Shown here: in pieces, positions 1,902-62,992 of the stretch
Numbering within the stretch: the stretch's first letter is position 1
Layout of the letters: the number at the start of each line of letters is the position of its first letter
Source of the DNA: Acidovorax defluvii
Lineage (GTDB): Bacteria; Pseudomonadota; Gammaproteobacteria; Burkholderiales; Burkholderiaceae_C
NCBI GenBank assembly: GCA_003268905.1
Contig: QLTU01000014.1
Coordinates: 1-64,000 of the forward strand
Direction of reading: 5' to 3'
DNA length: 64,000 nucleotides
Program-made: the position numbers and the translations under genes
The notes under the pieces: generated by a model
Databases searched by the model: none
What the model was told of the DNA's origin: nothing
What the model saw: the letters and a program-made list of their open reading frames with translations, nothing else

Positions 1902-1931
1902 ACGTCGACGGTCTTGCGTGGACCGGCACCC

Positions 1932-2570
1932 TCAGTACATCCCGACCACGTTGAGGAACCAGCCCTCGTGGTCGTAGTCGAAGTCGGTCAGGTCGTCGCT
2001 GAACTCGGTGAAGTTGTAGCCGGCGCCGATGCGGAAGTTCTTGCCGATGTCGCGGTCCAGTCCGACCAGCCAGCCCTGCCGCGTGCCGCCGGCCTTCACG
2101 TCCAGCCAGCGGTATTCGGCCAGAGCGTGCCAGGCGTAGACCACCTCGTAGCGCAGCTGTAGCGCGGCGAAGTCGGTGGCCGAGTCGAACCACGGCCCGC
2201 TGCCGCGTCCGTAGCGCACCTCGCCCTCGCGCCGGGCGAGCTTGCCGGCCACTTCCCAATGCTGGTCGTGGCGGTAGACGCCTTCCACCGACAGCACCTG
2301 GGTTTTCTGGTCGTAGTCCTGCTCGCGCTGGCCCAGGCTGGAGAGGTCGTACAGGTAGGTGTAGCGGCCGAACATTTCCCAGCGCGCGCTATCCCACGGC
2401 CGCCAGGCGAAGCCGGCGTTGCCTTCGATGAAGCGCGCGTTCGCCAGGCGGTCGCGATGGTCGTCGGTGTCGGCGTAGTTCAGCCGGCCGGCGATGCGGA
2501 AGCTTTCGTTGAACTTGTGCACGAGCCGGTTGGTGGTGACCCAACCAATGGCCCGCCCACCCGGTGCGCC
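1932..2570 (-). pseudogene. C-terminal fragment of an outer-membrane beta-barrel protein
   Basis: About 210 residues read without interruption to a stop at 1932. They alternate polar and aromatic residues in short strands (for example RYTYLYDL, LRYEVVYAW, AEYRWLDV, RIGAGYNF) and end in an aromatic residue, as outer-membrane barrels do. Acidic turn motifs such as DDLTDFDYD appear near the end. Upstream of about 2570 the reading frame continues into unrelated low-complexity sequence with no start or signal peptide, so the N-terminal part of what was probably a large surface protein is missing. I cannot name the parent protein. It is convergent with the hydrolase gene. Confidence 0.6.
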
Positions 2571-2693
2571 ATGGTGCTGTGCTCGTGGTGACCACGGTGG
2601 TGGCGTCCTGGATTGCGTTGGCACTCACACGCAAGCGGTTCAAGGGGAAACAAACACCCCCAGGGCTTCGCTGCGCTCTCTCCGCCCCTCGTA

Positions 2694-2723
2694 CAGGCCT
2701 GTCCTGAGCCTGTCGAAGGGGGC
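2694..2723. repeat. REP-like palindromic unit (CCTGTCCTGAGCCTGTCGAA)
   Basis: The sequence CCTGTCCTGAGCCTGTCGAA with flanking CAGG/GGGG is a form I recall as dispersed in high-GC beta- and gammaproteobacteria. It contains the short complementary arms ACAGGC and GCCTGT. It sits exactly where the ribF-like reading frame on the minus strand loses similarity, so it may mark an insertion or a recombination point. Confidence 0.6.
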
Positions 2724-2897
2724 CGGCACCAGCAGCCTGGCCGGATCGAGCGAGGGCCGCACACCCAGGTTGGCCACGCCGGCCAGCGGCTGGTCGGTCA
2801 AGCCGTGCACCTGCACCACGAAGATGCCGCTGGCGGCGGGCTTCCACGCATGGGCGCGGCGTGAAAAGCGCAGGTTGAGGGTGCGAAAGCCGTCCGC
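2720..2897 (-). pseudogene. ribF: remnant of ribF (riboflavin kinase domain)
   Basis: Read on the minus strand, this stretch encodes about 59 residues matching the flavokinase domain of bifunctional RibF: TLNLRF, then WKPAASGIFVVQVHGL, then PLAGVANLGVRPSLDP. In the intact enzyme this domain phosphorylates riboflavin to FMN. Here the adenylyltransferase half is absent upstream and the C-terminal end is absent downstream, where a REP-like unit begins. It is a non-functional scrap or an assembly join. The family call is good, but the gene is certainly incomplete. Confidence 0.65.
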
Positions 2898-3118
2898 CGC
2901 AAGGCGAGCCGGATTGGGATCTGGCAGCTCAACCCGACGAGGTAGACCAGCGCGTCAATTGGTGACCCAGTGAAGCGGCGGTATCCATCGCTGCGGGGAA
3001 GCAGCTGCGCGCGCGCCAGGCCCAAATGCATACTGCCTCCCAAGCTCTTGCCATTGAGCGGCAAGCGAGCGCTCAACCTTCCTTGGCCGAACGTGTTTCG
3101 AGGCCCAAAACTCGTGCC
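2898..3118. other. spacer without recognisable gene
   Basis: An open frame on the minus strand crosses this stretch, but it shows no family motif, no ribosome-binding site and no continuity with the ribF fragment. I see nothing else here except the approach to the right-hand direct repeat. Confidence 0.5.
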
Positions 3119-3159
3119 ATACTTGGCCTCATGCGGTTGAATTTCCTATCCGTGTGTAT
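3119..3159. repeat. right copy of direct repeat, upstream of the patatin gene
   Basis: This copy shares 20 of 20 bases at its left end with 61-80, and the CCTATCCGTGT block further on. It lies 54-94 bases before the patatin start codon, so it probably overlaps that operon's native promoter. The 3.06 kb between the two copies carries sequence that looks foreign to the rest of the window. Confidence 0.8.
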
Positions 3160-3212
3160 GGCAAAATGGTTTCCATCATTTCGCATGCAAAGCATGTCAC
3201 GTCCAGGAAAAT

Positions 3213-4262
3213 ATGCCAACGCCCACCCCCAGTACTCCCGCTGCACGTTCCAAACCTTTGCTGGTGGATTTTGCTTTGCAAGGTGGGGGATCCCATGGCG
3301 CTTTTACCTGGGGGGTTCTGGACCGCTTATTACAAGAGCCTTGGCTGCAGATTGATGGCATTTCGGGGACTTCTGCCGGGGCCATGAATGCGGCAGTTTT
3401 GAGTGACGGGTATGCAGAGGGCGGGGCGGAGGGAGGGCGTGCCGCGCTGGAGGCGTTCTGGCAGCGGGTGTCCAAAGCGGCAGTGATGAGCCCTTTTCGC
3501 CGTGGACCCATGGATATACTGCTGGGGCGCTGGACGATGGACAGCTCGCCGATGTTTGTCGCTTTCGACCTGGCATCCCGCCTTTTTTCTCCGTACGACC
3601 TGAACCCCACCGCTTTTAATCCGCTGGCGGACATTCTTGCGGAAAGTATCAACTTTGAACGCCTGGTGGCATCTCCCATCAAGGTTTTTGTGACGGCAAC
3701 CAATGTACGCACGGGGCGCGGACGTATTTTTCGCAACGCGGAGTTGTCGCCGAATGTGCTCCTGGCGTCGGCCTGTTTGCCCACCATATTCCAGGCCATC
3801 GAAGTTGATGGTGACCCTTATTGGGACGGTGGCTACCTTGGCAACCCCACGATCACGCCCTTGGTGCGTGAATGCCAGTCACGGGACACAATTTTGGTGC
3901 AAATCAACCCGGTCGAGCGCTCTGGCACACCGCGCTCTGCGTCGGAAATTCTGAACCGCCTCAACGAAATCTCTTTTAATGCGCCCTTGTTGAAGGAGCT
4001 TCGCATGATCGCGTTGCTGCGTCAGGTGGCCGACCCAGGCCAGACAGAAGGTGCGCAGTGGGCGGGTATGCGTATTCACCGGGTGGCCACCGAGGCCATG
4101 GCTGACCTGGGTTCTTCGTCCAAGATGAACGCAGAGTGGGACTTCCTGTGCATGCTGCGGGACCAAGGGCGCCGCAGCGCCGAAGAATTTTTGAAGAACC
4201 ATGGTGCCGACCTGGGCAAACGGTCATCGCTGGACCTTGACGCATTGCTGGAAGGAACCTGA
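3213..4262 (+). CDS. patatin-like phospholipase family protein
   Basis: This is a 349-residue serine hydrolase of the patatin fold, expected to deacylate lipids or polyesters. The oxyanion loop GGGSHG is near residue 25, the nucleophile motif GTSAG (G-x-S-x-G) near residue 52, and the catalytic Asp in the DGG of WDGGYLGNP near residue 207. No signal peptide is seen, so it should be cytosolic. AGGAA at 3205-3209 supports the start. The gene is followed after 3 bases by a GntP-type permease, so the two are surely co-transcribed. Patatin plus GntP suggests hydroxybutyrate or polyhydroxyalkanoate handling, which is an inference from the pairing only. Confidence 0.9.
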   Translation: MPTPTPSTPAARSKPLLVDFALQGGGSHGAFTWGVLDRLLQEPWLQIDGISGTSAGAMNAAVLSDGYAEGGAEGGRAALEAFWQRVSKAAVMSPFRRGPMDILLGRWTMDSSPMFVAFDLASRLFSPYDLNPTAFNPLADILAESINFERLVASPIKVFVTATNVRTGRGRIFRNAELSPNVLLASACLPTIFQAIEVDGDPYWDGGYLGNPTITPLVRECQSRDTILVQINPVERSGTPRSASEILNRLNEISFNAPLLKELRMIALLRQVADPGQTEGAQWAGMRIHRVATEAMADLGSSSKMNAEWDFLCMLRDQGRRSAEEFLKNHGADLGKRSSLDLDALLEGT

Positions 4263-4265
4263 TCT

Positions 4266-5726
4266 ATGTTGATGGGTCTGCTTGGTATTCTTCTCGCGCT
4301 GGCCCTGCTGATTGGTATGGCCTACCGCGGATGGAGCGTTTTGTTGCTCGCGCCTGCCGCGGCTTTGGTGGCGGCAGGTGTCGCGGGCGAGCCGGTGCTG
4401 GCGCATTGGACCCAGACCTTCATGCCTGCGGCGGCAGGGTTTCTGGCCCAGTTTTTCCCGATCTTTCTGCTGGGCGCGCTGTTTGGCAAGCTGATGGACG
4501 ACAGCGGTTCGGTGCGGGCCATCTCGGCCTTCATGGCTGAAAAAATGGGGCTGCGCCATGCCATTCTGGCCGTGGTGCTGGCGGGCGCTTTTGTGACCTA
4601 TGGCGGGGTGAGCCTGTTCGTTGCATTTTTTGTGCTGGCCCCCATGGCGCATTCGCTTTTTAAAGCCGCCAACATTCCCAACCACCTGATGCCTGCGGCG
4701 ATTGTGCTGGGAACCTCCACGTTCACCATGTCGGCATTGCCAGGCACGCCCTCTATCCAGAACGCGATTCCCATGCCGTTTTTTGGTACCACACCCTTTG
4801 CTGCACCGGGCTTGGGCGTTATTGCCTCACTCATCATGATGGGGTTTGGCATGTGGTGGCTGGGGCGGGCCGAGGCGGGGGCCCGCCGTGCAGGTGTGGG
4901 TTATGAAGAGGTCTCTGCGGCGACGCATGAAAAGGCAGCCGACGATGCACTGGTGCGTGAGCGCGCAGTCGCCTCGCATGAGTTTGACCCGCAGGAAATG
5001 GGCCACGGAAAACGCAGCGCAGAGCTGCCCGCCGTGTGGGCGGCTGCGTTGCCGCTGGTGGTGGTGGTGGCGGTCAACCTGGTGATGAGTTTTTGGGTGC
5101 TGCCGCGGATGGACGTGGCTTTCTTGCAGGAACCCCAGTGGGGGCAAACCACACTGGCGGGAGTGGGGGGCGTCTGGTCGGTGGTGGTGGCACTGGCGGT
5201 GGCGATTGTTTTGGTCATCGTGCTCAACTGGTCACGCCTGACCAATCTGCGCGACAGCATGGATGCAGGTGCCAATGCATCGGCTTTGCCAGCCTTGAGC
5301 GTGGCCAGCCTGGTGGGTTTTGGCGGTGTGGTGGCGGCCTTGCCGGCATTTGCGATGGTCAAGGCCTGGGTGCTGGGTATCGAAGGGGGCCCGCTGGTTT
5401 CTCTGGCGGTCTCGACCAATGTGCTGGCGGCTCTGACGGGCTCTGCATCGGGCGGTCTCACCATCGCACTGGAGGCCTTGGGTAGCACCTACATGCAACT
5501 GGCCTACGAACTGGGCATTGACCCATCCCTGATGCACCGGGTGGCCGTGATTGGCGCCGGCACCCTGGACAGCCTGCCGCACAACGGGGCAGTGGTGACC
5601 CTGCTGGCGGTCTGTGGTTCAACCCACCGCAAGAGTTACTTCGACATTGTGGTTGTGGGCATCATTGGGCCTATTCTGGCGCTGGTAGCAGTGATTGTTT
5701 TGGGCACTGCGTTTGGCTCGTTCTGA
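4266..5726 (+). CDS. GntP family permease
   Basis: This is a 486-residue polytopic inner-membrane protein with about 12 hydrophobic segments and the GntP family layout. It has a glycine-rich segment FVTYGGVSLFVAF near residue 115, TSTFTMSALPGTPSIQN near residue 155, and SGGLTIALEALG then LDSLPHNGA in the last third. GntP proteins import gluconate, hydroxybutyrate or related carboxylates with protons. A charged cytosolic loop lies around residues 205-255. The gene starts 3 bases after the patatin stop. A short piece resembling its last residues recurs at about 14367-14402. The substrate cannot be read from sequence; hydroxybutyrate is the guess the neighbour suggests. Confidence 0.88.
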   Translation: MLMGLLGILLALALLIGMAYRGWSVLLLAPAAALVAAGVAGEPVLAHWTQTFMPAAAGFLAQFFPIFLLGALFGKLMDDSGSVRAISAFMAEKMGLRHAILAVVLAGAFVTYGGVSLFVAFFVLAPMAHSLFKAANIPNHLMPAAIVLGTSTFTMSALPGTPSIQNAIPMPFFGTTPFAAPGLGVIASLIMMGFGMWWLGRAEAGARRAGVGYEEVSAATHEKAADDALVRERAVASHEFDPQEMGHGKRSAELPAVWAAALPLVVVVAVNLVMSFWVLPRMDVAFLQEPQWGQTTLAGVGGVWSVVVALAVAIVLVIVLNWSRLTNLRDSMDAGANASALPALSVASLVGFGGVVAALPAFAMVKAWVLGIEGGPLVSLAVSTNVLAALTGSASGGLTIALEALGSTYMQLAYELGIDPSLMHRVAVIGAGTLDSLPHNGAVVTLLAVCGSTHRKSYFDIVVVGIIGPILALVAVIVLGTAFGSF

Positions 5727-5749
5727 GTGTGTGAACCGTAACCCTGGGG

Positions 5750-6656
5750 TCAACGCGACATCCAACTGATCACCAAAGCATTCACCAGATCGATGAAAAA
5801 ACCTCCCACCAGGGGGACGATGATGAAGGCGCGGTGGGCTGCGCCATACTGGCGGGTGACAGCACTCATATTGGCCACGGCGGTGGAGGTGGAGCCCAGT
5901 GCAATACCGCCAAACCCGGCGCACAACACGGCGGCTTCGTAGTCTTTGCCCATAAAGCGAAAAACAATCCAGAGTGTGTACACCACAGTCAGCACCACCT
6001 GCAGCACCAGGGTGGCAAACACAAAGCTGAACACACCCTTCAGTGCCCACAGCTGCAGCCCCATCAGGGCCATGGTCAGGAACATACCCAGGCAAATGTC
6101 AGAGATCAGGGCCAGGCCCTGGGTGGTTTTTTTCCAGTTGCGGGCAGACTGTTTCGGTAGCAGCAAGGGCAGGGTGTTGCGCAGCACGATACCGGCCATC
6201 AGGCTGCCGACAAAATCGGGCAGATTGAGCCCGGTGTAACCAAGCACCCTCGTCAGGCCCTGCCCCAGCAACAACGCCAGATTCAGCCAGAGCCAGGCGC
6301 GTAACACGCCGTAGTAATCAAGGCGTGTTTCGCTGCTGTCGGCGTTGTGTGCCACGCCAATGTCCAGCCGGGTGTCATGGGACGGCGTGAGTTTGTGTTC
6401 CCGCATGAGGTAGCTGGCAATGGGCCCCAATGATGCAGGCAATGATGAGCCCGAGCATGCTGCCCGCAGTGCCAATCTCCAGTGCGTTGTGGATACCCAG
6501 CCGCTCGACGAAATCAGGCACCCATGCCAGCGTGGTACCGATACCCCCGACCAGCGACACGGAGCCGACCAGTAAACCCGCCCGGGGGTCGAGTCCAAAA
6601 ATATTGGCAATTCCCATGCCAAGCATGTTCTGCAGCACGATAAAAGTGGCGGACAA
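5750..6656 (-). pseudogene. gltS: gltS-like sodium/glutamate symporter, N-truncated and frameshifted
   Basis: Two overlapping minus-strand frames together give about 300 residues of a GltS-type sodium-glutamate symporter. The first (6656 to about 6432) has LQNMLGMGIANIFGLDP and LVGSVSLVGGIGT. The second (about 6432 to 5750) has ALMGLQLWAL, FMGKDYEAAVL and FFIDLVNALVISW. They are joined by a one-base shift at a GGGG run near 6430-6435, where three G would restore the frame. About the first 100 residues of the usual about 400 are missing, because the sequence switches at about 6655 to an lpd fragment on the other strand. The gene is therefore doubly broken. It converges on the GntP gene with a 23-base gap. 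Confidence 0.85.
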
Positions 6657-7141
6657 TGCAAGTCATCGCCGGTGAACTGCAGGGCAACAAGGAACTGGCC
6701 AGCGCCGCTTTCAACGCCCGCGTGATCCCCAGCGTGGCGTACACCGACCCCGAAGTGGCTTGGGTGGGCCTCACCGAAGACCAGGCCAAGGCCCAGGGCG
6801 TCAAGGTCAAGAAAGGCCTGTTCCCCTGGGCCGCCTCCGGCCGTGCCATTGCCAACGGGCGCGACGAAGGCTTCACCAAGCTGCTGTTCGACGACAGCCC
6901 CGAAGCAGGATCAGGAGACGGCCATGCTGGCCGGGGCCACGGCAAGATCCTGGGCGGCGGCATGGTCGGCACGCATGCGGGCGACATGATCGGCGAGATT
7001 GCCCTGGCCATCGAGATGGGCGCCGATGCGGTGGACATCGGCAAGACCATCCACCCGCACCCCACGCTTGGGGAATCCATCGGCATGGCAGCGGAAGTGG
7101 CGCAAGGGTCGTGCACCGACGTGCCCCCTGCGCGCAAGTAG
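6656..7141 (+). pseudogene. lpdA: dihydrolipoamide dehydrogenase, C-terminal fragment
   Basis: The frame encodes the last about 160 residues of the E3 flavoprotein of 2-oxoacid dehydrogenase complexes. Landmarks are ARVIPSVAYTDPEVAWVGLT, the interface motif GGGMVGTHAGDMIGEIALAIEMG, and the active-site His region TIHPHPTLGES. The FAD- and NAD-binding parts (about 450 residues) are missing, as the sequence before 6656 belongs to gltS on the opposite strand. The ATG at 6656 is accidental. After SPEA, where relatives as I recall them continue directly with HGHGKIL, about nine extra residues (GSGDGHAGR) appear in place of one. A product, if made, could not be an active enzyme. Confidence 0.85.
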
Positions 7142-7169
7142 GCCGGAGCACAGCCACCGGAGCCTGGCC

Positions 7170-7394
7170 ATGGCAGTCAAGAAGTTCCCCCAGGCCCCCG
7201 CCCACCCCGAGCGGGTGTGCTGGGGCTGCGACTTGTACTGCCCTGCCAAGGACATGCGCTGCGGCAATGGGTCGGACCGCACGCAGCACCCGGCGGAGCT
7301 GTTTGGGGACGATTGGGACCAGTGGGGCCTGCTGGACGACCGGGGTACGCCGCCCGATGCCACGGCAGAAATGGGAAAACCCTCTGTGCGTTGA
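7170..7394 (+). CDS. small cysteine-rich protein, DUF3079 family
   Basis: This is a 74-residue cytosolic protein with a run of cysteines in CWGCDLYCPAKDMRC and a following acidic stretch ELFGDDWDQWGL. The pattern fits the DUF3079 family, whose function is unknown; the cysteines could bind a metal. The start ATG at 7170 is chosen because the conserved MAVKKFPQAP sequence begins there. It lies 28 bases after the lpd stop, which is also its usual sort of setting in relatives as I recall them. Confidence 0.75.
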   Translation: MAVKKFPQAPAHPERVCWGCDLYCPAKDMRCGNGSDRTQHPAELFGDDWDQWGLLDDRGTPPDATAEMGKPSVR

Positions 7395-7454
7395 ATGCGG
7401 TATCGTGGCTGGGCGTATTTGCGGGCGGTCCCTTTTTTCTGCGTTTGACTTATC

Positions 7455-8619
7455 GTGCTTCGACTTTCATTGCTGACGGGCCTGTTCGGGGTCCTGATTC
7501 TTTTTGTCGCCACCCTGTGGCCTGCCCGGTTTACTGCAGCAGAGCCGGACGGGAACGGCCCGGTGCTGACCGTTTTTGTGCGCGATGACTGCCCGCACTG
7601 TGCGGATGCCAAGGCCTATCTTGCCGGGCTGGCCCGCGAGAGACCCGCGCTGCGCATTGACTACCGCGCCATCGACCGCGACCCGCAAGCACGCCAAGCA
7701 CTGGAGCAGGTCTCGCGCCAGGCCGGTATCTGACCGCCGGGCGTTCCGACCTTTGTCGTCGGCGAGCGGGTGATGATCGGCTTCGGGGACGCCGCAGACA
7801 GCGGCCCTGAGCTGCTTGCGCTGCTCGATGCGGCGCCGCCTGCCGCGTCTATCCCGCAGGCATCGCCTGCACCGCGCCAGGCGATCGACGCGCCGCTTGT
7901 TGGCACGCTCAGCGTCGCACAGCTCGGCTTGCCGCTGTTCACGCTGGCCATCGGTCTGCTCGACGGCTTCAACCCCCTGCGCCACCTGGGTGCTGCTCTT
8001 CCTGCTCTCGCTGCTGGTGCGGCTGCACGACCGCCGGCGCATGGCGCTGATTGCCGGCACCTTTGTGCTGGTCAGTGGCGCGGTTTACTACGCGATGATG
8101 GCGGCGTGGCTCAACCTTTTCCTTGCGGTCGGCCTGTCAGTGCCGCTGCGCGTGGGGCTGGCCCTGCTGGCCATCGCCATTGGTGCCATTAATACCAAGG
8201 ATTACTTTGCATGGGGACGCGGTGTCTCGCTGTCGATTCCCGAAAAGACCAAACCCGGCCTCTTTGAGCGCATGCGCCGGGTAATGAACGCGCCATCGCT
8301 GCCAGCGGCCATGGCCGGTGTCGCGCTGCTGGCCATCGCCGTCAATCTGATCGAATTGTTGTGCACTGCAGGTCTGCCAGCCATCTACACGGCAATCCTG
8401 ACGCAGCAGGACCTGGGACACCTTGCCTACCACGGCTACCTGGGCTTGTACATCATTGGCTACATCACCGACGACGCACTGATGGTCACGCTTGCGGTCA
8501 GCGCACTCTCCAGCAGCAAGCTCACAGAGCAAGGTGGGCGCTGGCTCAAGCTGCTGTCCGGTCTGGTGATGCTTGCGCTCGGCCTGGTCATGCTGTTGCG
8601 GCCGCAGTGGCGGGGGTGA
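7455..8619 (+). pseudogene. glutaredoxin-like domain fused to CcdA/DsbD-type membrane protein, interrupted
   Basis: The gene reads as an N-terminal membrane anchor, a thioredoxin-fold domain with CPHC (residues 46-49), then PGVPTFVVGERV and a polytopic domain of about 220 residues resembling CcdA/DsbD proteins (GFNPCATWVLLFLLSLL once reframed, GYITDDALMV, WLKLLSGLVMLALG). Such proteins move reducing equivalents across the inner membrane. Two lesions interrupt it. There is a TGA at 7731-7733 where TGG would fit (GI-W-PPGVP). There is also a one-base gain in the run of five C at about 7972-7976. The last segment is open from about 7977 to the stop at 8619. This is either a decayed gene or sequencing error. 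Confidence 0.75.
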
Positions 8620-54176: not shown

Positions 54177-54247
54177 TGTAGCAAGCGCCTGCTACAGCGT
54201 CAATTCATAATGCGGTGTTGCACAACCACCTTGGCAAGGAAACATCC

Positions 54248-54784
54248 ATGACACAGCAAACCATCACCCTGGGAGGCGGATGCTTTTGGTGCACCGAGGC
54301 GGTTTTTGACCGCGTGCGCGGCATCACCGATGTGGAAAGCGGTTACACCAACGGCCACACCATCCATCCCAGCTACGAGCAGATCTGCCAGGGCGACACC
54401 GGCCACGCCGAGGTGGTGCGCCTGACCTTTGATGCCGACGAGATCAGCCTGCAGGAGGTGTTGGAAATCTTCTTCCACACCCACGACCCCACCACCCTTA
54501 ATCGCCAGGGCAACGACGTGGGCACGCAATACCGCAGCGGCATCTATTACGAGTCCCCCGAGCACGGCGACATCGCCAACGACATGATCCGCCAGATGTC
54601 GCAAGACAAGCTGTTTGGCGCGCCAATCACCACCGAGGTGAAGCCACTGACCAACTACAGCGCGGCCGAGGCGTACCACCAAGACTATTTTGCGAACAAC
54701 CCCAATGCCGGGTATTGCGCGTTTGTGGTGGGGCCGAAGGTGGAAAAGTTTCGCAAGACATTTGCGCGGTATTTGAAAGCGTAA
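54248..54784 (+). CDS. msrA: peptide-methionine (S)-S-oxide reductase
   Basis: This 178-residue cytosolic enzyme repairs oxidised methionine. The catalytic motif GGGCFWCTEAVF is near residue 10. TGHAEVVRLTFD and HTHDPTTLNRQGNDVGTQYRS follow, with the recycling region near the C-terminus (AYHQDYFANNPNAGYCAFVV, including a Cys). AAGGAAA at 54237-54243 sets the start at 54248. It is divergent from the tetR-RND operon and probably monocistronic. Confidence 0.96.
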   Translation: MTQQTITLGGGCFWCTEAVFDRVRGITDVESGYTNGHTIHPSYEQICQGDTGHAEVVRLTFDADEISLQEVLEIFFHTHDPTTLNRQGNDVGTQYRSGIYYESPEHGDIANDMIRQMSQDKLFGAPITTEVKPLTNYSAAEAYHQDYFANNPNAGYCAFVVGPKVEKFRKTFARYLKA

Positions 54785-54876: not shown

Positions 54877-56079
54877 TCAGAGCAGCAGCGCGAGGTGGTT
54901 GTCGGGGGCCAGCATCTCGGGCCAGGGCAGCATTTGTGCTTCACCTGCCTGCCACCGGGCCAGGCCGCGGCCTGCGCCCATCAACATGCCCATGCCACGC
55001 GCGTCGCGCCAGCTGCCCAGGGCGCAGACTTCCTTAAGCTCCCCCAGCGGGATCAACCCGTCGGGCGCATCGGGGTGCCACAACAGGGCGTTGCCACTGC
55101 GCTGGGCACTGAGCAAAAAGCTGCCGCCGGGGCCGGCGCAAATATCGCCTGCATAACCTTGATGGTCGATGGCGGGGCAGGGGGGCAGCGTGAGCGTACT
55201 GCCGTCCCACACGGCGATCATGGGCGCGTTGCGGCGCTCCTGGCGTTCGTCGTGCTGCGCCTGCAGCGCAATGCCCAGCAGGCGCTGGTCTCCGTCCACT
55301 GACCATGCCATGTGGCGCACGCTCAGGCGGGGGTCTTCAAGCGCCCAGCGCTGCTGCACGGTGCCAGAGTCCGTGTCCAGGCGCAGCAGGGCAGGCGCCA
55401 GGCGCTTGTGGGGCACACGGCGGCCGCGTTCGTCGCGGGGTATGCCGCCCAGGGCGACGAGCACATGGCGTTCGTCGGCGTCAAACAGCATCTGGTGCGC
55501 ATCCACGCCCGGCAGCTGCCACGCGGCAACAGCGCGCAGCGTCTGCGCATCGCGGCGAACCACCCAGGCGCTGCCGTCAATGCGCCCGGTCTCGCTGCTG
55601 TAAAGCCAGCGGCCATCCGAGCTGAGCAGCAGGTGCCCATTGAGAGTGCGGGTCGATGCCTCGTCGCGGCCGGGGTGCAGCCAGCGCGGCGCCTGTGCCG
55701 CATCGGCTGGCAGGTGCACCAGCCAGTCGCCAGGGCGCGCGGACACTGCATAGAGACCACCCCGCCCGTCGGGCGTGAGCCCGTGTGCCCGGTTGGGCAC
55801 AGGCTGCACGCGGCTCCAGGTGCTGCGCCGCTGGTCCCAGTCAACCTGCAGCAGCCCGATGCGATGGGCTTTGGGGTCGCTGTCTTCAGCGGGTGCAGCG
55901 CCGGCACGCCAGGCCATGGCCACTGTTTGCGGGGCAAGCGGGTCGGCTTTGCGGTCCGGATGGGATGAAGTGGCCAGGGCGGTGGTCTGTGCCGAGGCAA
56001 GCGCTGTCCAGGCGCTGATGGCGCCCATCACACGCAGGCTATGTCGACGATTCAGTGAGGAGAGCATCTTCAGATTCAT
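54877..56079 (-). CDS. DUF1513 domain-containing exported protein
   Basis: This is a 400-residue protein with a twin-arginine-like leader (NRRHSLRVMGAISAWTALASA). The mature part looks like a beta-propeller with repeated blocks such as HGLTPDGRGGLYAVSARPGD, RTLNGHLLLSSDGRWLYSSE and YAGDICAGPGGSFLLSAQRSG. DUF1513 proteins are often encoded with iron-uptake lipoproteins. Here no such neighbour remains, but the zinc locus starts 260 bases away on the other strand. The function is unknown. Confidence 0.85.
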   Translation of the reverse strand: MNLKMLSSLNRRHSLRVMGAISAWTALASAQTTALATSSHPDRKADPLAPQTVAMAWRAGAAPAEDSDPKAHRIGLLQVDWDQRRSTWSRVQPVPNRAHGLTPDGRGGLYAVSARPGDWLVHLPADAAQAPRWLHPGRDEASTRTLNGHLLLSSDGRWLYSSETGRIDGSAWVVRRDAQTLRAVAAWQLPGVDAHQMLFDADERHVLVALGGIPRDERGRRVPHKRLAPALLRLDTDSGTVQQRWALEDPRLSVRHMAWSVDGDQRLLGIALQAQHDERQERRNAPMIAVWDGSTLTLPPCPAIDHQGYAGDICAGPGGSFLLSAQRSGNALLWHPDAPDGLIPLGELKEVCALGSWRDARGMGMLMGAGRGLARWQAGEAQMLPWPEMLAPDNHLALLL

Positions 56080-56292: not shown

Positions 56293-56313
56293 TAATGCAA
56301 CCCGATTGCGTTA
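56293..56313. promoter_or_regulatory. probable Zur box
   Basis: TAATGCAA (56293-56300), 5-base spacer, TTGCGTTA (56306-56313): seven of eight arm positions are complementary. It lies 28 bases before the Fur-family start codon. Fur-type regulators bind such dyads in their own promoters. The half-site form GCAACGCAGT recurs before DUF3299 (about 59269-59278) and before the TonB receptor (about 60834-60843). Confidence 0.7.
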
Positions 56314-56340
56314 CACGCGCTTGCCGCCTATCCGTAACCC

Positions 56341-56829
56341 ATGCCGAGCTCATCCACCTTTTCTACCTCCCGCCTCGGCACGCCCTGGACGTTGCCGCCC
56401 GGCATGCGCGCCACCCGTGCCACGCGGGCGCTGGCGCAGCTGTACGAAGCCCGCCCAGACGCAGCGCTGTCCGAAGCCGAAGTCGAGACAGCCCTTGCCA
56501 CCGCAGGTGCCGCCGTCAACAAAGTCACCGTTTACCGCCTGCTCGACCGCTTTGCCGCCGCAGGCCTGCTGCACAAGCAGGTGGATGCTGCCCGCGTCAC
56601 GCGCTATGCGCTGGCGCCGCAGGGTGGCGATGGCGCGGCGCCGCGCTTTGAGTGCGACGACTGCCACCGCCAGTTCCGCCTGTCGCAGGGTTCGGCCAAG
56701 GTGCAAACCGCCCTCAAGCAGGTGCTGCAGGCGCTGGCCACGGCCGGGCATGAGAGCCTGGCGGTAGACATTGCGGTGCATGGGCGCTGCGCAGACTGCG
56801 CCCACCCGGCCGGGGGTGCCGCCGCATGA
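56341..56829 (+). CDS. zur: Fur family regulator, probably Zur
   Basis: This 162-residue metalloregulator has a winged helix from about residue 22 (TRATRALAQLYEARPDAALSEAEVETAL) with the recognition helix NKVTVYRLLDRFAAAGLL, then ECDDCHRQFRL and CADCAHP, the two Cys pairs of the structural zinc site. It heads an ABC transporter and a zinc receptor gene cluster, and a dyad lies in its promoter, so zinc is the likely signal. Its stop overlaps the ABC ATPase start by four bases. Zur is inferred from this context; the family itself is certain. Confidence 0.85.
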   Translation: MPSSSTFSTSRLGTPWTLPPGMRATRATRALAQLYEARPDAALSEAEVETALATAGAAVNKVTVYRLLDRFAAAGLLHKQVDAARVTRYALAPQGGDGAAPRFECDDCHRQFRLSQGSAKVQTALKQVLQALATAGHESLAVDIAVHGRCADCAHPAGGAAA

Positions 56830-57509
56830 TCCGCACCCGGGGCCTTTCTTATCGCTATGCCACCGACGGCACCGCGCCGCTGCGCTTTCCCGATGTGGAC
56901 CTGCGCCAGGGCGGCACGCTGCTGCTGCGCGGGCGCTCGGGCTCGGGCAAATCGACCTGGCTGTCATTGATAGCCGGGCTGCGCGGGGCCAGCGGGGGCG
57001 ACCTGTTTGTTGCGGGCACGCAGCTGGGCACGCAGCGCGGGGCCGAAATGGACGCCTGGCGCGCCCGCAGCATCGGGTTTTTGCCGCAAAAGTTGCACCT
57101 CTCGAGTGCGCTCACGGTGGCCGACAACCTGGTGCTGGTCTACTTTGCGGCCGGGCTGCCGCGCGACGATGCGGCCATCACACGCGCGCTGGCGCAGGTG
57201 GGTGTGGCCGAGCTGGCCGCGCGCAAGCCGCACCAGCTCTCGGGCGGGCAGGCGCAGCGCGTGGCGCTGGCGCGGGCCGTGCTGCTGGCGCCGCAACTGC
57301 TGTTGGCCGACGAGCCCACGGCCAGCCTGGACGATGAGGCCGCTGCCGACGCGCTGGCGCTGCTGCAGCAAAGCGCCGCCGCTTGCGATGCCAGCCTGGT
57401 GATTGCCACGCACGACCAGCGTGTGGTGCAGGCCCTGGCCGGTGTGCAGCAGCTGAATTTGAATGAAATTGGCGCCCAGCGCTTATTGGATAAGCGCGAG
57501 CAGCTATGA
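56826..57509 (+). CDS. ABC transporter ATP-binding protein (MacB/LolD type)
   Basis: This 227-residue ATPase has Walker A GRSGSGKST near residue 36, signature LSGGQAQRVALARA near residue 138, and Walker B LLLADEPTASLD near residue 160. It pairs with the FtsX-type permease downstream, whose start overlaps its stop (ATGA at 57506-57509). The last about 14 residues (NEIGAQRLLDKREQL) are encoded by a dispersed palindromic repeat, which also supplies the stop codon. Context suggests a zinc-linked transport or lipoprotein/periplasm-remodelling role. Confidence 0.9.
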   Translation: MIRTRGLSYRYATDGTAPLRFPDVDLRQGGTLLLRGRSGSGKSTWLSLIAGLRGASGGDLFVAGTQLGTQRGAEMDAWRARSIGFLPQKLHLSSALTVADNLVLVYFAAGLPRDDAAITRALAQVGVAELAARKPHQLSGGQAQRVALARAVLLAPQLLLADEPTASLDDEAAADALALLQQSAAACDASLVIATHDQRVVQALAGVQQLNLNEIGAQRLLDKREQL

Positions 57510-57513
57510 ATTC
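57455..57513. repeat. interspersed palindromic repeat, copy I, forming the ABC ATPase C-terminus
   Basis: AATTTGAATGAAATTGGCGC, CCAGCGCTTATTGGATAAGC, GCGAGCAGCTATGAATTC: a complete copy of the family, with perfect GCGCTTAT/ATAAGCGC arms. It contains the stop codon of one gene and the start codon of the next. Confidence 0.9.
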
Positions 57514-58753
57514 AGGAGTCTTCAAACTGGCGCGTCTGTCATGGCGCTACCTGTGGTCCCGCCCGCTGGCGGCGGTGCTCAACCTGCTGGTGCTGACGCT
57601 CGGCCTGGCCGCCATCACGCTGGTGCTGCTGGTGGCCACCCAGCTCGACAAGGCATTTGAGCGCGACCTCGCAGGCATCGACCTGGTGGTGGGCGCCAGG
57701 GGCAGCCCGCTGCAGCTCATCCTGGCGGGCGTGTTCCACATCGATGTGCCCGCGGGCAACATCCCGCTGCAAGAGGTGCAGGCCCTGCAGAAGAACCCGC
57801 TGGTGGCGCAGGTGATTCCGCTGAGCCTGGGTGACAGCTACCAGGGCTTTCGCATTGTGGGCACCACGCCCGACTACGTGGTGCACTACGAGGCCACGCT
57901 GGCGGAAGGCGCGCTGTGGCAGCAGCCCATGGACGCGGTGCTGGGCGCCAGCGTGGCGCGCGGCATTGTCAAAGCCAGCCATGCGGGCGCGCCGCTGGTG
58001 GGCGCCACCTTCATCGGCAGCCACGGCCTGGGTGGATCGGGTGGGGGAGGGCACGCGCACGGCAACCACCCCTACCGTGTGAACGGCGTGCTCGCGCCCT
58101 GCGGCTGCGTGCTCGACCGGCTGATCCTGACCGGCTCCGAATCCGTCTGGATGGTGCACGAGACCGCCACGGCCAACGACGCCGAAGATCTGGAAATATT
58201 GAAAGAAGAGCGTGAAGTGACCGTGGCCCTGGTCCGCTACCGCACGCCTATGGCCGCCATCACGCTGCCGCGCCAGATCAATGCCGACACCGCCCTGCAG
58301 GCAGCGGCGCCCGCCATCGAGGTCACGCGCCTGCTGCGCCTGCTGGGCGTGGGCGCCGACGTGCTGCGCGCCTTTGGCGGCGTGCTGCTGGCGGTGGCGG
58401 CGCTCAGCGTGTTCATTGCGCTGTGGAACGCCGTGCGCGAGCGCCGCGCCGACCTGGCCATGCTGCGCATGCTGGGCGCGCCCCCGGGCCGCGTGGCCGG
58501 GCTGGTGCTGTGCGAGGCGCTGTGGCTGGCCGCGCTGGCGTCTGCCCTGGGCCTGCTGCTGGGCCACGCACTGGCCCACGGCCTGGGCTGGGCGCTGCAG
58601 GCGCAGGGCCTGCTGCCGGTTACCGGCTGGATCTGGCTGCCCGCCGAAGCCGGTGTGCCGCTGCTGGCCGCAGGCGTGGCCGCGCTGGCGGCGCTGCTGC
58701 CCGCCGTGCAGGCCTACCGCACCGACGTGGCCGACTTGCTGAGTCAGCCCTGA
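57506..58753 (+). CDS. FtsX-family ABC transporter permease with His-rich loop
   Basis: This 415-residue inner-membrane permease of the MacB/FtsX type has an N-terminal helix (AAVLNLLVLTLGLAAITLVLLVA), a periplasmic core, and three C-terminal helices (from about residue 285). The periplasmic core contains GGSGGGGHAHGNH followed by VLAPCGCVLDRLIL, a His/Cys-rich stretch that could bind zinc. This differs from lipoprotein- and macrolide-exporting relatives. It starts within the ATPase stop codon region. In Vibrio cholerae an ABC system of this kind (Zrg) takes part in zinc uptake; the likeness here is by arrangement. Confidence 0.88.
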   Translation: MNSGVFKLARLSWRYLWSRPLAAVLNLLVLTLGLAAITLVLLVATQLDKAFERDLAGIDLVVGARGSPLQLILAGVFHIDVPAGNIPLQEVQALQKNPLVAQVIPLSLGDSYQGFRIVGTTPDYVVHYEATLAEGALWQQPMDAVLGASVARGIVKASHAGAPLVGATFIGSHGLGGSGGGGHAHGNHPYRVNGVLAPCGCVLDRLILTGSESVWMVHETATANDAEDLEILKEEREVTVALVRYRTPMAAITLPRQINADTALQAAAPAIEVTRLLRLLGVGADVLRAFGGVLLAVAALSVFIALWNAVRERRADLAMLRMLGAPPGRVAGLVLCEALWLAALASALGLLLGHALAHGLGWALQAQGLLPVTGWIWLPAEAGVPLLAAGVAALAALLPAVQAYRTDVADLLSQP

Positions 58754-58802
58754 CCCGCCCGGTGACTCCTGTTTTCAACCCAACCTACCTGAAAGGCTCT
58801 CC

Positions 58803-59054
58803 ATGAAAAAGCTCCTCACCGCATTGGCCCTGGCCCCCCTGTTGCTGGCTGGTGCCCTGGCACATGCCCAGACCCACAGCGACAAGGAAACCAAGGCCGA
58901 CATCGAGCGCCACCGCGCCATGGCCGCCGCGCACGAGGCCGCTGCCAAATGCCTTGAGACGGGCAAGGGCCACGACGTTTGCCAAAAAGAACTCCAGACC
59001 GCCTGCAAAGGCCTGGGCATTGGCAAAAACTGCGGCATGCGCCACAGCCACTGA
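58803..59054 (+). CDS. small periplasmic His/Cys-containing protein
   Basis: This 83-residue protein has a Sec signal peptide (about residues 1-22, ending ALAHAQ). The mature part is helical and charged, with four cysteines (AAKCLETGKGHDVCQKEL and ACKGLGIGKNCGMRHSH) and a His-rich tail. It could bind zinc or form two disulfides. GAAAGG at 58790-58795 is the ribosome-binding site. It lies 49 bases after the permease. I do not recognise a named family. Confidence 0.75.
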   Translation: MKKLLTALALAPLLLAGALAHAQTHSDKETKADIERHRAMAAAHEAAAKCLETGKGHDVCQKELQTACKGLGIGKNCGMRHSH

Positions 59055-59084
59055 AGCCCGCACCTGAGCCCTCCTGCGTTGCTT

Positions 59085-59193
59085 GCAGCGCCTTACCCCG
59101 AGGGGGACGCCACCGGTGTCCTGGCCGCAAGGAGTGAATACCATGGCAACCGCAGCGCCTTACCCCGAGGGGGACGCCACCGGTGTCCTGGCC
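59085..59193. repeat. 42-base direct duplication
   Basis: GCAGCGCCTTACCCCGAGGG and the next 22 bases occur at 59085-59126 and again, identically, at 59152-59193, with 25 bases between. The block contains CCCCGAGGGGG, a short G/C hairpin related in look to the other dispersed G/C elements. It separates the small periplasmic protein gene from DUF3299 gene. Confidence 0.92.
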
Positions 59194-59295
59194 TCGGTGG
59201 CATGGGCTTGAGGCGCCCACGCACTTATGCGCGTTGAAACTGCGCAAAATAATCCGGCCCTGTTGCTGCAACGCAGTTCACTGAAGGTTATTTCC

Positions 59296-59916
59296 ATGCC
59301 CCATCCCGCAATGGTTTGTTCCCGGCGATACGGCTCTGCCCCACGGCGCGCTGCCGCACTGGTGGTGGCGCTGGCCGCGTGCTTTGCGGCCCCCGCGCAG
59401 GTGGGTGCGCAGGGCGCCAAGCCTGCGGCCGAGGCACCGGCGCCCGGCGCTCCGTTGCCCGGCGCCGGTGGTGCAGCGGGGGCGGCTGCAGGTGTGCCAG
59501 CGGGCGCGGGCGCCGGTTACCACAGCCCCAGCAGCCCGATTGCGCCGCTGCCCCAACGCAACGACGTGGTGCCATGGTCGGTGCTGACCGACCTGACCAA
59601 GAAAACCACCAAAGACCGCATCGTGCCCATGTTCAACGACGCGCAAAAGGGCCTGGACAAGACCACGCAGCGCATCCAGGGCTTCATGGTGCCGCTGGAC
59701 GCCAAGCCCACGCAGACCCACTTCATCCTCACCTCGGTGCCGCTGACCTGCTCGTTCTGCACGCCGGGCGGGCCGGAGAGCATGGTCGAGGTCAAGGCCA
59801 AAACCCCCGTACGGTATTCGCTGGAACCGGTGGTGGTGGAGGGCAAATTCACCGTGCTCCCCAACGACCCCTACGGCCTGTACTACCGCATGGTGGATGC
59901 GGTGCCGGTGAAATAA
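59296..59916 (+). CDS. DUF3299 domain-containing exported protein
   Basis: This is a 206-residue protein with a long signal peptide (hydrophobic core AAALVVALAACFAAPAQ). A Gly/Ala/Pro-rich linker follows to about residue 75, and then the DUF3299 domain with IQGFMVPLDAKPTQTHFILTSVPLTCSFCTPGGPESMVEV (two Cys in C-S-F-C). Such proteins occur in zinc-regulated clusters; a metal-binding or assembly role in the periplasm is plausible. GAAGG at 59283-59287 supports the ATG at 59296; an ATG at 59311 is possible. Confidence 0.85.
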   Translation: MPHPAMVCSRRYGSAPRRAAALVVALAACFAAPAQVGAQGAKPAAEAPAPGAPLPGAGGAAGAAAGVPAGAGAGYHSPSSPIAPLPQRNDVVPWSVLTDLTKKTTKDRIVPMFNDAQKGLDKTTQRIQGFMVPLDAKPTQTHFILTSVPLTCSFCTPGGPESMVEVKAKTPVRYSLEPVVVEGKFTVLPNDPYGLYYRMVDAVPVK

Positions 59917-59958
59917 CCGCCGCCTTTTTCTTTTCTGCTGCCCATTCGCCCCGGCCCC

Positions 59959-60516
59959 GTGACCAGCCCTGTGACCCGCGCCCACCCCCATCCGCACGCC
60001 CCAACGGCAAGCCTTGCACCCAGGCAAGCCCAAGCCGTTGCCCGCCGCAGGGCAGGGCTGCGCGCACCCGGAGCGCTTGGCACGCCTGGCACATCTGGCA
60101 AGTGCGGGCGGCGTTACACCCATTGGGCGCAGGCCGCGCTGGTGTGGCTGCTGCTGGCGTTGGTGGTGGTGCCTTCGCTGGGGCGCCTGCACCAGGTAAT
60201 GCACGCCCCGGCGCTGCAGGCGCACGCACTTTCACCAGCCGCAGCAGGGGCGGGCGCACCCATCACCGCCGCGCACACCGGCGAATCCAGCCACACCGCC
60301 CACGCACAGGGCCTGCTCGATTTGCTGTTGGCCCACCACGCGCCGGTGGATTGCCTGTTGCTCGACCAGCTGGCGCTGGGCGACGCATTGCACAGCGCCC
60401 CCACAGCGCTTGCCGCCCCGACGCCCGCGCAGGCGCCGCTGGTGCACCCGGCCGCCACCGCAGCGGCCCGCCATGTTGCGCTTTTTCAGGCCCGCGGCCC
60501 GCCTGCGGTCGGGTGA
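59959..60516 (+). CDS. membrane-anchored His-rich protein (DUF2946-like)
   Basis: This 185-residue protein has His/Pro-rich N-terminus (THPHPHAP-like pattern RAHPHPHAPTAS), one hydrophobic segment (AALVWLLLALVVVPSLG near residue 60), and a periplasmic tail with LHQVMHAP, LLLAHHAPVDCLLLDQLALGD and final ALFQARGPPAVG. This layout resembles DUF2946 proteins encoded beside metal-linked TonB receptors. The GTG start at 59959 lies 42 bases after the DUF3299 stop; a GTG at 59971 is also possible. The function is unknown; metal exposure to the receptor system is a guess. Confidence 0.6.
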   Translation: MTSPVTRAHPHPHAPTASLAPRQAQAVARRRAGLRAPGALGTPGTSGKCGRRYTHWAQAALVWLLLALVVVPSLGRLHQVMHAPALQAHALSPAAAGAGAPITAAHTGESSHTAHAQGLLDLLLAHHAPVDCLLLDQLALGDALHSAPTALAAPTPAQAPLVHPAATAAARHVALFQARGPPAVG

Positions 60517-60844
60517 CGGGTTCAGCCGGTTGAGCGTGTTGGCTGCCCTGCGCTGCGTTGTCAGCGTGTGGGCGGGCAGGCCACTTTCATCGGGCTTGAA
60601 TCCATACGCCACCCCGGCGCAGCGCCAGGTGCCAGGTCTGCACTCCCCCGTGCCGGTCGGAAGCCCTTTGCGCGCACCGCAATGGCCGCCTTTTGCTGCA
60701 AACGCTCCTTATTTCATAGCTGCTAGCGCTTATCCATAAAGCGCTAGAGGCACTTTTTACTCATATTTTTGGTGGTTTCCTGTCCCCGGACCGGAAAGCC
60801 GCGTGCCGCCCGGCACGCCCACCTATTTCTATTGCAACGCAGTC
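60517..60844. promoter_or_regulatory. 328-base region upstream of the TonB receptor
   Basis: It contains dispersed repeat copy J (60711-60753), a small hairpin GTGCC-GCCC-GGCAC near 60802-60815, and TTGCAACGCAGT just before the start codon of the receptor, resembling a half Zur box. The region before the repeat holds no evident gene. Confidence 0.5.
60711..60753. repeat. interspersed palindromic repeat, copy J
   Basis: TTTCATAGCTGCTAGCGCTT then ATCCATAAAGCGCTAGAGGC: both arms are present, AGCGCTTAT and ATAAAGCGCT. It separates the DUF2946-like gene from the TonB receptor. Confidence 0.9.
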
Positions 60845-62992
60845 ATGACACACCACACGCACCCCCTTTGCCCAGCCGATCGCACTGCACATCGCCACCC
60901 AGCCCTGCACCCTGTGGCCCTGGCCGCCATCCTCACGCTGTGGGGCACCGGTTTGGCACATGCACAGGCCAATGCGCAGGCAGCACCACCAACCGCAGGC
61001 AGCCTGCCCCCCGTCACCGTGTCGGCCAGCGGCCTGCAACTGGGCGCCAATGAAATGACCACGCCCACCGCCGTGCTGGAGGGCGACGAACTCGTGCTCC
61101 GCCGCGAGGCCACGCTGGGCGAAACACTGGGCAGCGAGCCCGGCATCACCAGCAGCCACTTTGGCGCCGGTGCCAGCCGCCCCATCATTCGCGGCATGGA
61201 TGGCCCGCGCGTCAAGGTGCTGAGCGACGGCGCCGAGCTGCACGATGCCTCCACCATCAGCCCCGACCACGCCGTGGTGTCCGAGCCGCTGCTTGCCACG
61301 CAGATCGAAGTGCTGCGCGGCCCCTCGGCGCTGGTGTATGGCGGCGGCGCCGTGGGTGGCGTGGTCAACGTGCTCGACGGCAAGGTACCCACCGCCATCC
61401 CGCAAAAGGGCATTGAGGGCAGCGCTGAGCTGCGCGCCAACACCGGCGCGGGCGAGGGGGCAGGGGCCTTCTCACTGACCGGCGGCGCTGGCAACCTGGC
61501 CGTGCACGCAGAAGGCGTGGCGCGCGACGCGGGCGACTACCGCGTGGGCAAAGGCTGGGCGCCCGATGGCGAGCCCACCCGCAAAGTGCCGGGCAGCTTT
61601 AACCGCACCGACACCGGCAGCGTGGGCCTGTCGTGGGTGGGCGAGCGCGGTTACCTGGGTGCCGCCTACACCCGCCAAGCCGCCCGCTACGGCCTGCCGG
61701 GCCACAACCACAGCTTTGAAGGCTGCCACACCCACGGCACCCACCTGCACTGCGGCGCCCACGAAGAAGAGGAAGACGGCGGCCACGACCACGGCGCCGA
61801 AGAGCATGGAGATGTGCCCGTGGTCGACCTGCGCAGCGAGCGCTTTGACATCCGTGGCGAGCTGCGCAACCCCTTCACCGGCTTTTCGGCCCTGCGCCTG
61901 CGCGCGGGGGTTACCGACTACGTGCACGACGAAGTCGAAGACGGCGCTATTGCCACCACCTTCAAAAACAAGGCCTACGACACCCGCATCGAACTGCAGC
62001 ACGAGCCGATTGCCGGGTTCAAGGGCGTGGTCGGCCTGCAAACCTCGCGGCGCAAGTTCAGCGCCATTGGCGAAGAGGCCTATGTGCAGCCCACAGTTAC
62101 CCGCAAAACCGGCCTGTTTGTGCTGGAGGAATACCGCCTGAACGACTGGTATGGCGACTGGCGCTTTGAAGCCGCCCTGCGCCACGACCGCCAGACGGCC
62201 GAGGCCTTAGCGTCAGGTTCGGCCGGCGGCACCGAACGCAGCCACAACGGCACGTCCGCATCGCTGGGCGCGGTGTGGAAGTTCACGCCCGGCTACCAGG
62301 TGGGTACATCCTTCACCCGCGCCAGCCGCGCCCCGTCGGCCGAAGAGCTGTATGCGCGCGGCCTGCACATGGCCACCAGCACCTACGAACGCGGCAACGC
62401 CAACCTGCGCTCCGAAACATCGCAAAACATCGACCTGAGCCTGAAGAAGACCAGCGGCGACACCACCTTTGGCGTCAGCGTCTTTCGCAACCGCATCAGC
62501 AACTACATCTACGGCCGCACGCTGGATGAAGTGGATGGCCTGCAACTGCTGCAATACAGCCAGGCCGACGCCACCTTCACCGGCATCGAAGGCCAGGTGC
62601 GCCAGCGCGTCACGCGCAACATGGGCGTCACCCTGTTCGGCGACACCGTGCGCGCCAAACTCGACGGCGGCGGCCTGCTGCCCCGCATCCCCGCCACCCG
62701 CGCAGGCGTGCGGCTGGATGCCAACTGGAACGCCTGGGAAGGCCAGGTCGAATGGGTGCAAGTGGCCCGCCAAAACCGCGTGGCAGCGTTTGAAACCGCC
62801 ACGCCCGGCTACGGCATGCTGAACCTGGGGGTGAGCTACCGCGGCCAACTGAGCAGCGGCACGCCGTGGCAGGTGTACCTGAAGGCCAACAACCTGACGG
62901 ATCGCTTGGCGTATGCGCACACCAGCTTCATCAAAAACGCAGCGCCGTTAATGGGGCGCAATATCACCGTGGGGATGAAGGTGGCGTTTTGA
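60845..62992 (+). CDS. znuD: TonB-dependent zinc receptor (ZnuD type)
   Basis: This 715-residue outer-membrane receptor has a His-rich leader and signal peptide (to about residue 41, ending GLAHAQ), a TonB box region (LPPVTVSA), a plug domain with LGSEPGITSSHFGAGASRPIIRGMDGPRVKVLSDGAELHDAS, and a 22-strand barrel ending in NITVGMKVAF. A long external loop is packed with metal ligands (HNHSFEGCHTHGTHLHCGAH, then HDHGAEEHGD, near residues 287-325), the hallmark of the zinc receptor ZnuD. It ends the zinc cluster led by zur. ATG at 60845 is chosen over one at 60803, because the His-rich signal sequence begins there. Confidence 0.9.
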   Translation: MTHHTHPLCPADRTAHRHPALHPVALAAILTLWGTGLAHAQANAQAAPPTAGSLPPVTVSASGLQLGANEMTTPTAVLEGDELVLRREATLGETLGSEPGITSSHFGAGASRPIIRGMDGPRVKVLSDGAELHDASTISPDHAVVSEPLLATQIEVLRGPSALVYGGGAVGGVVNVLDGKVPTAIPQKGIEGSAELRANTGAGEGAGAFSLTGGAGNLAVHAEGVARDAGDYRVGKGWAPDGEPTRKVPGSFNRTDTGSVGLSWVGERGYLGAAYTRQAARYGLPGHNHSFEGCHTHGTHLHCGAHEEEEDGGHDHGAEEHGDVPVVDLRSERFDIRGELRNPFTGFSALRLRAGVTDYVHDEVEDGAIATTFKNKAYDTRIELQHEPIAGFKGVVGLQTSRRKFSAIGEEAYVQPTVTRKTGLFVLEEYRLNDWYGDWRFEAALRHDRQTAEALASGSAGGTERSHNGTSASLGAVWKFTPGYQVGTSFTRASRAPSAEELYARGLHMATSTYERGNANLRSETSQNIDLSLKKTSGDTTFGVSVFRNRISNYIYGRTLDEVDGLQLLQYSQADATFTGIEGQVRQRVTRNMGVTLFGDTVRAKLDGGGLLPRIPATRAGVRLDANWNAWEGQVEWVQVARQNRVAAFETATPGYGMLNLGVSYRGQLSSGTPWQVYLKANNLTDRLAYAHTSFIKNAAPLMGRNITVGMKVAF

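Follow-up and report, generated by a model that had tools for sequence, protein, structure and literature searches.

A probable zinc-starvation operon without ZrgA in Acidovorax defluvii, combining a ZnuD-like receptor with a type VII ABC pair

The closest described systems and the Acidovorax cassette

The Zrg system of Vibrio and its Pseudomonas counterpart, PA4063-PA4066, are the nearest described relatives of the locus considered here, a seven-gene cassette of Acidovorax defluvii built around an ATP-binding cassette (ABC) pair. The role of Zrg-type ABC systems, import of zinc or export of something, is openly disputed between the two lines of work. Zrg is read as a zinc importer in Vibrio (PMC9820375, PMC9817125), the survival of a V. 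cholerae znuA zrgA double mutant in zinc-deficient medium being about 100-fold lower (PMC9820375), while the Pseudomonas counterpart is read as an exporter of the pyochelin-cobalt complex, as pyochelin and cobalt built up in the PA4065 znuA zrmB mutant while its zinc content did not change to a relevant extent (PMC11481552). The P. aeruginosa operon has also been called the most elusive among those linked to zinc deficiency (PMC8561739). The cassette analysed here lies at 56341-62992 of a window of 64,000 nucleotides (contig QLTU01000014.1, assembly GCA_003268905.1), with all seven genes in one direction and an inverted repeat (56293-56313) at its head. It is very probably a zinc-starvation operon, and the best explanation as a whole, which we hold to be probable with some reservation, is that of a Zur-type-repressed operon on a branch that lacks ZrgA and is sister to the Zrg/PA4063-PA4066 systems, that is, a new variant of their kind and not a member of Zrg proper. 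Neither a ZrgA-less variant nor a Zur operon of Acidovorax was found described in a literature search, most subscription journals being outside its reach. The features are as follows:

56293..56313, no strand assigned: predicted Zur-type operator TAATGCAACCCGATTGCGTTA, an inverted repeat (8-5-8) with no mismatch to the footprint consensus
56341..56829, + strand: Fur-family regulator, Zur-like (PF01475, 24.4 bits, cut-off 23.1)
56826..57509, + strand: ABC ATPase of the LolD/MacB type (PF00005, 102 bits)
57506..58753, + strand: FtsX/MacB_PCD permease, type VII fold (Pfam FtsX with the MacB periplasmic domain)
58803..59054, + strand: small exported Cys/His protein of 83 amino acids, no Pfam family over the cut-off
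59296..59916 (listed open reading frame from 59227), + strand: exported DUF3299 protein, a divergent member of the ZrgE/PA4066 family (PF11736, 26.6 bits, cut-off 22)
59959..60516, + strand: small protein of the sixth gene, no Pfam match, homologue in 39 of 80 named loci
60845..62992 (listed open reading frame from 60803), + strand: ZnuD-like TonB-dependent receptor with a His-rich loop (NF038289, 660 bits)

The cassette resembles Zrg/PA4063-PA4066 in having the ATPase, an FtsX/MacB-like permease and DUF3299 together, as well as Zur-type control, and its permease carries the same invariant His/Asp set as the ZrgA-linked permeases. However, it lacks ZrgA (PF10986), the defining soluble component of Zrg, its permease falls in a sister clade outside the ZrgA-linked one, and it adds the small Cys/His protein and the ZnuD-like receptor; this likeness was judged through ZrgA-linked relatives rather than the Vibrio and Pseudomonas proteins themselves. 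With ZnuABC and AztABCD the cassette has an operator in common in relatives, where these systems often lie adjacent to it, but it encodes neither a ZnuA (PF01297) nor an ABC-3 (PF00950) protein, its permease being of the FtsX/MacB_PCD type. It also differs from MacB, LolCDE and HrtB by a separate ATPase and permease and the lack of MacA among its proteins, and an invariant His marks the cassette permeases, the MacB and Lol proteins lying outside that residue comparison.

The gene order is real and conserved. Among 80 named loci retrieved with the permease, some of them truncated by contig ends, the ATPase was found in 77, DUF3299 in 78, the small Cys/His protein in 70, a zur homologue in 46 and a receptor homologue in 42. 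Moreover, the zur and ATPase genes and the ATPase and permease genes overlap by 4 bases each, which suggests translational coupling. The true starts of the DUF3299 and receptor genes, judged from sequence, are probably internal ATGs at about 59296 and 60845. Pfam matches and the sequence itself bear out the Fur-family gene, ABC ATPase, FtsX permease, small Cys/His exported protein and DUF3299 protein of an earlier, sequence-only reading, as well as the palindromic box that it placed before the Fur-family gene; its label of DUF2946-like for the sixth gene was dropped, no Pfam match being found in that protein and none over the cut-off in five relatives.

The predicted operator and its distribution

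The inverted repeat at 56293-56313 is a conserved predicted operator, showing 0 mismatches to the consensus TAAYGCAA-N5-TTGCRTTA, which is matched perfectly nowhere else in the genome of 4.11 Mb. In an alignment of Acidovorax and Paracidovorax relatives, TAATGCAA-N5-TTGCGTTA was kept upstream of zur amid variable surroundings. When the 80 named loci (1.14 Mb) were scanned with TAAYGCAAN5TTGCRTTA allowing up to 2 mismatches, a total of 56 matches were found in 45 loci, compared with none in any locus for the reversed pattern used as control. Furthermore, the operator was tied to the presence of the regulator: in 71 loci, nine of the 80 being set aside for too little upstream DNA or no ATPase, it appeared upstream in 44/44 of those with a linked zur vs. 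0/27 of those without.

The same operator is common to zinc-uptake operons in relatives. In particular, in locus L191 it occupies the promoter region from which zur and znuC-znuB-znuA (ZnuA 288 bits, ABC-3 171 bits) diverge, and four further loci (L192, L193, L195 and L196) showed similar layouts, judged by position. Other zinc genes were also found in relatives, namely, in L164, a ZigA equivalog scoring 656.6 bits against a cut-off of 600 and an AztC-like protein whose 315.6 bits fall short of the cut-off of 350, and, in L194, a match to AztD that was weak (92 bits against a cut-off of 400). Zinc would thus be the signal to which the locus responds.

Further Zur boxes had been proposed at about 59265 and 60834, before the DUF3299 and receptor genes, which did not hold as full sites: the window scan gave no match there within 3 mismatches, the exact cores were absent from relatives (0/29 and 0/26, respectively), and the nearest matches in the last 150 upstream bases of relatives had 5 mismatches (59265, 27 relatives) and 6 mismatches (60834, 26 relatives). 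A half or degenerate site at 60834, before the receptor, is possible on sequence grounds, since GTTGC recurs within 45 bases of the receptor start in 13/26 relatives (1.1 expected), many of them close kin; TTGCAA was present before that start in 7/26 (0.2 expected). Before DUF3299, these motifs appeared in 4/27 (1.1 expected) and 1/27 (0.2 expected), respectively.

Other sequence features were observed around these genes. Two elements of the AGCGCTTAT type, 74% alike, are located at 57478-57500 (3′ end of the ATPase gene) and 60725-60747 (upstream of the receptor), and several Acidovorax rows show similar stretches ahead of the receptor. An exact direct repeat of 42 nucleotides (59085-59193, spacing 67) separates the small-protein and DUF3299 genes, and a scan for sigma-70 promoters found none. 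Two near-identical two-mismatch matches to the box, at G000:C39:8781-8801 and G000:C59:1567-1587, are perhaps copies of one repeat. A DUF1513 gene (54877-56079), divergent from zur, faces the operator, and a scan of 120 related loci gave 0 matches to it. For the loci that lack a linked zur, an alternative upstream palindrome was sought and discarded, as two chance-like matches were all that appeared in the 26 of 27 loci examined.

The receptor and the small Cys/His protein

The best solved relative of the receptor was Neisseria ZnuD (4rdr, 392 bits), in agreement with the ZnuD receptor with a His-rich loop predicted beforehand. Both proteins have His-rich loops, and the four zinc ligands given for ZnuD (Asp99, His100, Glu340 and His499; PMC4557270) were all retained, as D155, H156, E377 and H522 in the numbering of the 729-residue open reading frame. 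Nevertheless, the receptor differs from ZnuD in sharing its operon with an ABC and in its score against NF038289, a model of the type 'exception' (660.3 bits, below the curated cut-off of 950), and it is therefore called ZnuD-like only.

The small protein showed an invariant set of residues in 40 relatives (H37, H44, C50, C60, C68, C77 and H81, with a CGMxH end), and its model was a helical hairpin of moderate confidence (pLDDT, the predicted local distance difference test, 78.9). Its distribution was followed in a family sample of 120 genomes, 38 of which carry the cassette permease type, called at ≥53% identity over the full length or from split pieces at 57-67%; the genome-wide permease searches scored the best 15 candidates per genome in this sample and the best 7 in an order sample of 250 genomes, so that copies may be missed. 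The small protein was found in 31 of the 120 genomes, 29 of them with the cassette; conversely, it was detectable in 29/38 cassette genomes, leaving 9/38 without a copy, vs. 2/82 of the rest. The four-cysteine protein is thus the dedicated partner of the cassette. It is likely to be a periplasmic metal carrier, and the metal that it binds would be zinc. Sequence searches for solved relatives of this protein or of the DUF3299 protein returned nothing meaningful, and PA4066, solved as PDB 4hsp according to PMC8561739, did not surface among those of DUF3299.

A small-protein unit was also found apart from the ABC. In L212 (G259:C8:126500-137500), positions 2490-6150 hold msrA, the small Cys/His protein, a homologue of the sixth gene and a ZnuD homologue (1168 bits); the 11 kb read gave no match to an ABC, to DUF3299 or to zur, and this pairing is a hint that the small protein serves the receptor. 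In G049 (L211), the small protein lies beside msrA, with no receptor match. Another frequent neighbour in the named loci was a TetR homologue (41/80). In L056 (Acidovorax temperans DSM 7270, about 1312-7992), the best ATPase match is ~6 kb from the permease, as if by an insertion between them, and two metagenome-assembled genomes (L050 and L101), titled Gammaproteobacteria and Gemmatimonadetes, carry Comamonadaceae-like cassettes, for which the titles or bins may be wrong.

These data bear on the proposal that the ABC, DUF3299 and small protein maintain the envelope, in a Lol-like or redox function shared with msrA, and that their co-regulation with zinc genes is a matter of chance. The closeness of the permease fold to LolCDE fits such a role, as does msrA itself, which is present in the window (54215-54784) and in 56 of the 80 named loci. 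Yet the permease has invariant His residues, zinc neighbours recur in other families of the order, and the small protein and ZnuD form a unit without the ABC in L212, which makes envelope maintenance quite unlikely.

The type VII ABC pair and the weighing of its role

Structure comparison placed the permease in the MacB/LolCDE/HrtB fold (type VII); its fold lists contained no solved zinc importer, which excludes nothing. We know of no importer among proteins of this fold. In the permease tree, 36 rows of its own type were split from 40 others by a branch with 100/100 support, and this clade is the fully supported sister of the ZrgA-linked permeases, to which it is ~29-38% identical; Vibrio and Pseudomonas permeases are absent by name from the tree, the comparison being with ZrgA-linked relatives. 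The GHAHGNH (H183, H185 and H188) and CGC (C199 and C201) motifs noted from the sequence are both present in the permease. As a key motif, CGC was discarded: C199 and C201 occur in some Comamonadaceae rows only, while H173, H185 and H218 were invariant. Together with D59, D110 and D204, these periplasmic residues were invariant in both clades, in alignments of 76 and 75 sequences whose sets overlap, and they would bind zinc and form one site. The ATPase gave 188 NCBIfam matches, of which the top 25 (DevA, FtsE, LolD and others) all scored below the cut-off.

Several points weigh against a Zur-type-repressed zinc operon of this kind, and no experiment on the locus was found in the papers listed by the literature search. 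To begin with, the 27 of 71 loci with neither a linked zur nor the operator include 20 with msrA, which stands directly before the ATPase in the several such loci where the order was inspected, so that cassette control may differ there. In addition, the window genome had 3 sites per strand at up to 2 mismatches, with 3 for the reversed control, so that the two extra sites with two mismatches do not exceed what the control yields; at up to 3 mismatches the window had 1 match, and 19 of 100 window shuffles held at least one. As the counts alone are unremarkable, the case for the operator rests on the conserved footprint. The regulator has a FUR domain by Pfam and both CxxC zinc motifs in the alignment, but the canonical regulatory His residues that precede these motifs are lost (HAHFxC has become APRFEC), although Zur relatives of other families, L163 and L164 among them, retain HAHFxC. 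The His residues of this HxHFxC region are what we take to be the sensing-site ligands of Zur, and with the His lost and the CxxC pairs retained the regulator is named Zur-like only. Two matches to the ZIP family were also found in the genome (best 123 bits), so the locus need not be the sole entry of zinc. Finally, the presence of ZnuA was unrelated to that of the cassette, as a ZnuA-family protein occurred in 17/38 cassette genomes vs. 33/82 of those without it (P = 0.69, kinship ignored), and G061 and G219 of the order sample hold both the cassette and ZrgA, so there is no strict exclusion of ZrgA. The family sample, by contrast, speaks for the reading: ZrgA was rarer with the cassette (1/38 vs. 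19/82, P = 0.0036, kinship ignored), the sole genome with both, G262, having two permeases, one of each type.

The lost sensing His would suit a member of the Fur family other than Zur that makes the locus answer to iron, manganese, nickel or copper, and so would the best NCBIfam resemblance of the regulator, which was to Irr and far below the cut-off, and its best solved relative, named merely Fur family. We regard this as very improbable, given the same operator on the divergent zur/znuCBA promoter, the ZigA, AztC-like and AztD-like neighbours in relatives, the ZnuD ligands of the receptor and the only other PF01475 match in the genome, a separate and strong Fur match (151.9 bits).

Under the Zur-type-repressed, ZrgA-less reading, a Zur-type repressor on the operator at 56293-56313 would keep the operon off when zinc is sufficient. 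Under zinc starvation, the ZnuD-like receptor would draw zinc across the outer membrane with TonB energy, the small four-Cys/His periplasmic protein would receive or carry it, and the type VII ABC, with its invariant periplasmic His/Asp, would pass the zinc, either as such or in a small complex, onwards at the expense of ATP, with DUF3299 as an accessory.

For the ABC pair, import and export are weighed as rival readings. A true importer, which would take zinc from the periplasm to the cytoplasm and so complete an outer-to-inner route in the way suggested for ZrgBC, is possible though not favoured. The survival defect of the V. cholerae znuA zrgA double mutant argues for it, and so do the 0 matches to ZnuA and to ZrgA in the whole genome, which extend the absence of ZnuA noted earlier for the locus alone. 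Against it stand the fold, the missing ZrgA and the relation to ZnuA, which is not one of anticorrelation: of the 17 family genomes having both, 7 have the ZnuA-family gene no more than 10 kb from the permease, and the two lie close together in at least 8 further genomes of the order sample. By this measure the cassette does not resemble an importer that simply replaces ZnuA, and the idea of such a replacement was rejected. The opposite direction, in which a MacB-type exporter would rid the zinc-starved cell of a metallophore or surplus metal complex, as argued for PA4064/PA4065, is unlikely: the pyochelin and cobalt build-up in the PA4065 znuA zrmB mutant and the shared fold class speak for it, but there is no MacA-type adaptor among the cassette proteins by Pfam, and with ATPase and permease in separate genes the locus is not of the MacAB-TolC kind; the receptor has ligands for free zinc, and no metallophore genes were found in the cassette, which is what the search covered. 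The sequence-only reading, a zinc locus distinct from ZnuABC and comparable to Zrg, therefore stands in that part, through the shared operator, the znuCBA, azt and zigA neighbours in relatives and the ZnuD ligands, while its complete outer-to-inner route does not follow, given the MacB/LolCDE fold, the disputed relatives, the lack of relation to ZnuA and the absence of ZrgA.

More tentatively, the type VII ABC may bind zinc directly by its own invariant periplasmic His3/Asp site and hand it on by ATP-driven motion; it is equally tentative that, in such a case, no soluble binding protein takes part and the ZnuD-like receptor and the dedicated four-cysteine carrier feed the ABC. If true, such an ABC would join ZnuABC/AztABC and Zrg as a third kind of zinc system, or else be the first importer of type VII. 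As the cassette has no ZrgA, occurs in genomes without ZnuA and has a ZnuD-like receptor under one operator, a deletion in one species could separate the disputed roles, with residues D59, D110, H173, H185, D204 and H218 as a direct point of attack on ABC function. Moreover, zinc genes of Comamonadaceae can be searched for with the operator sequence as it stands.

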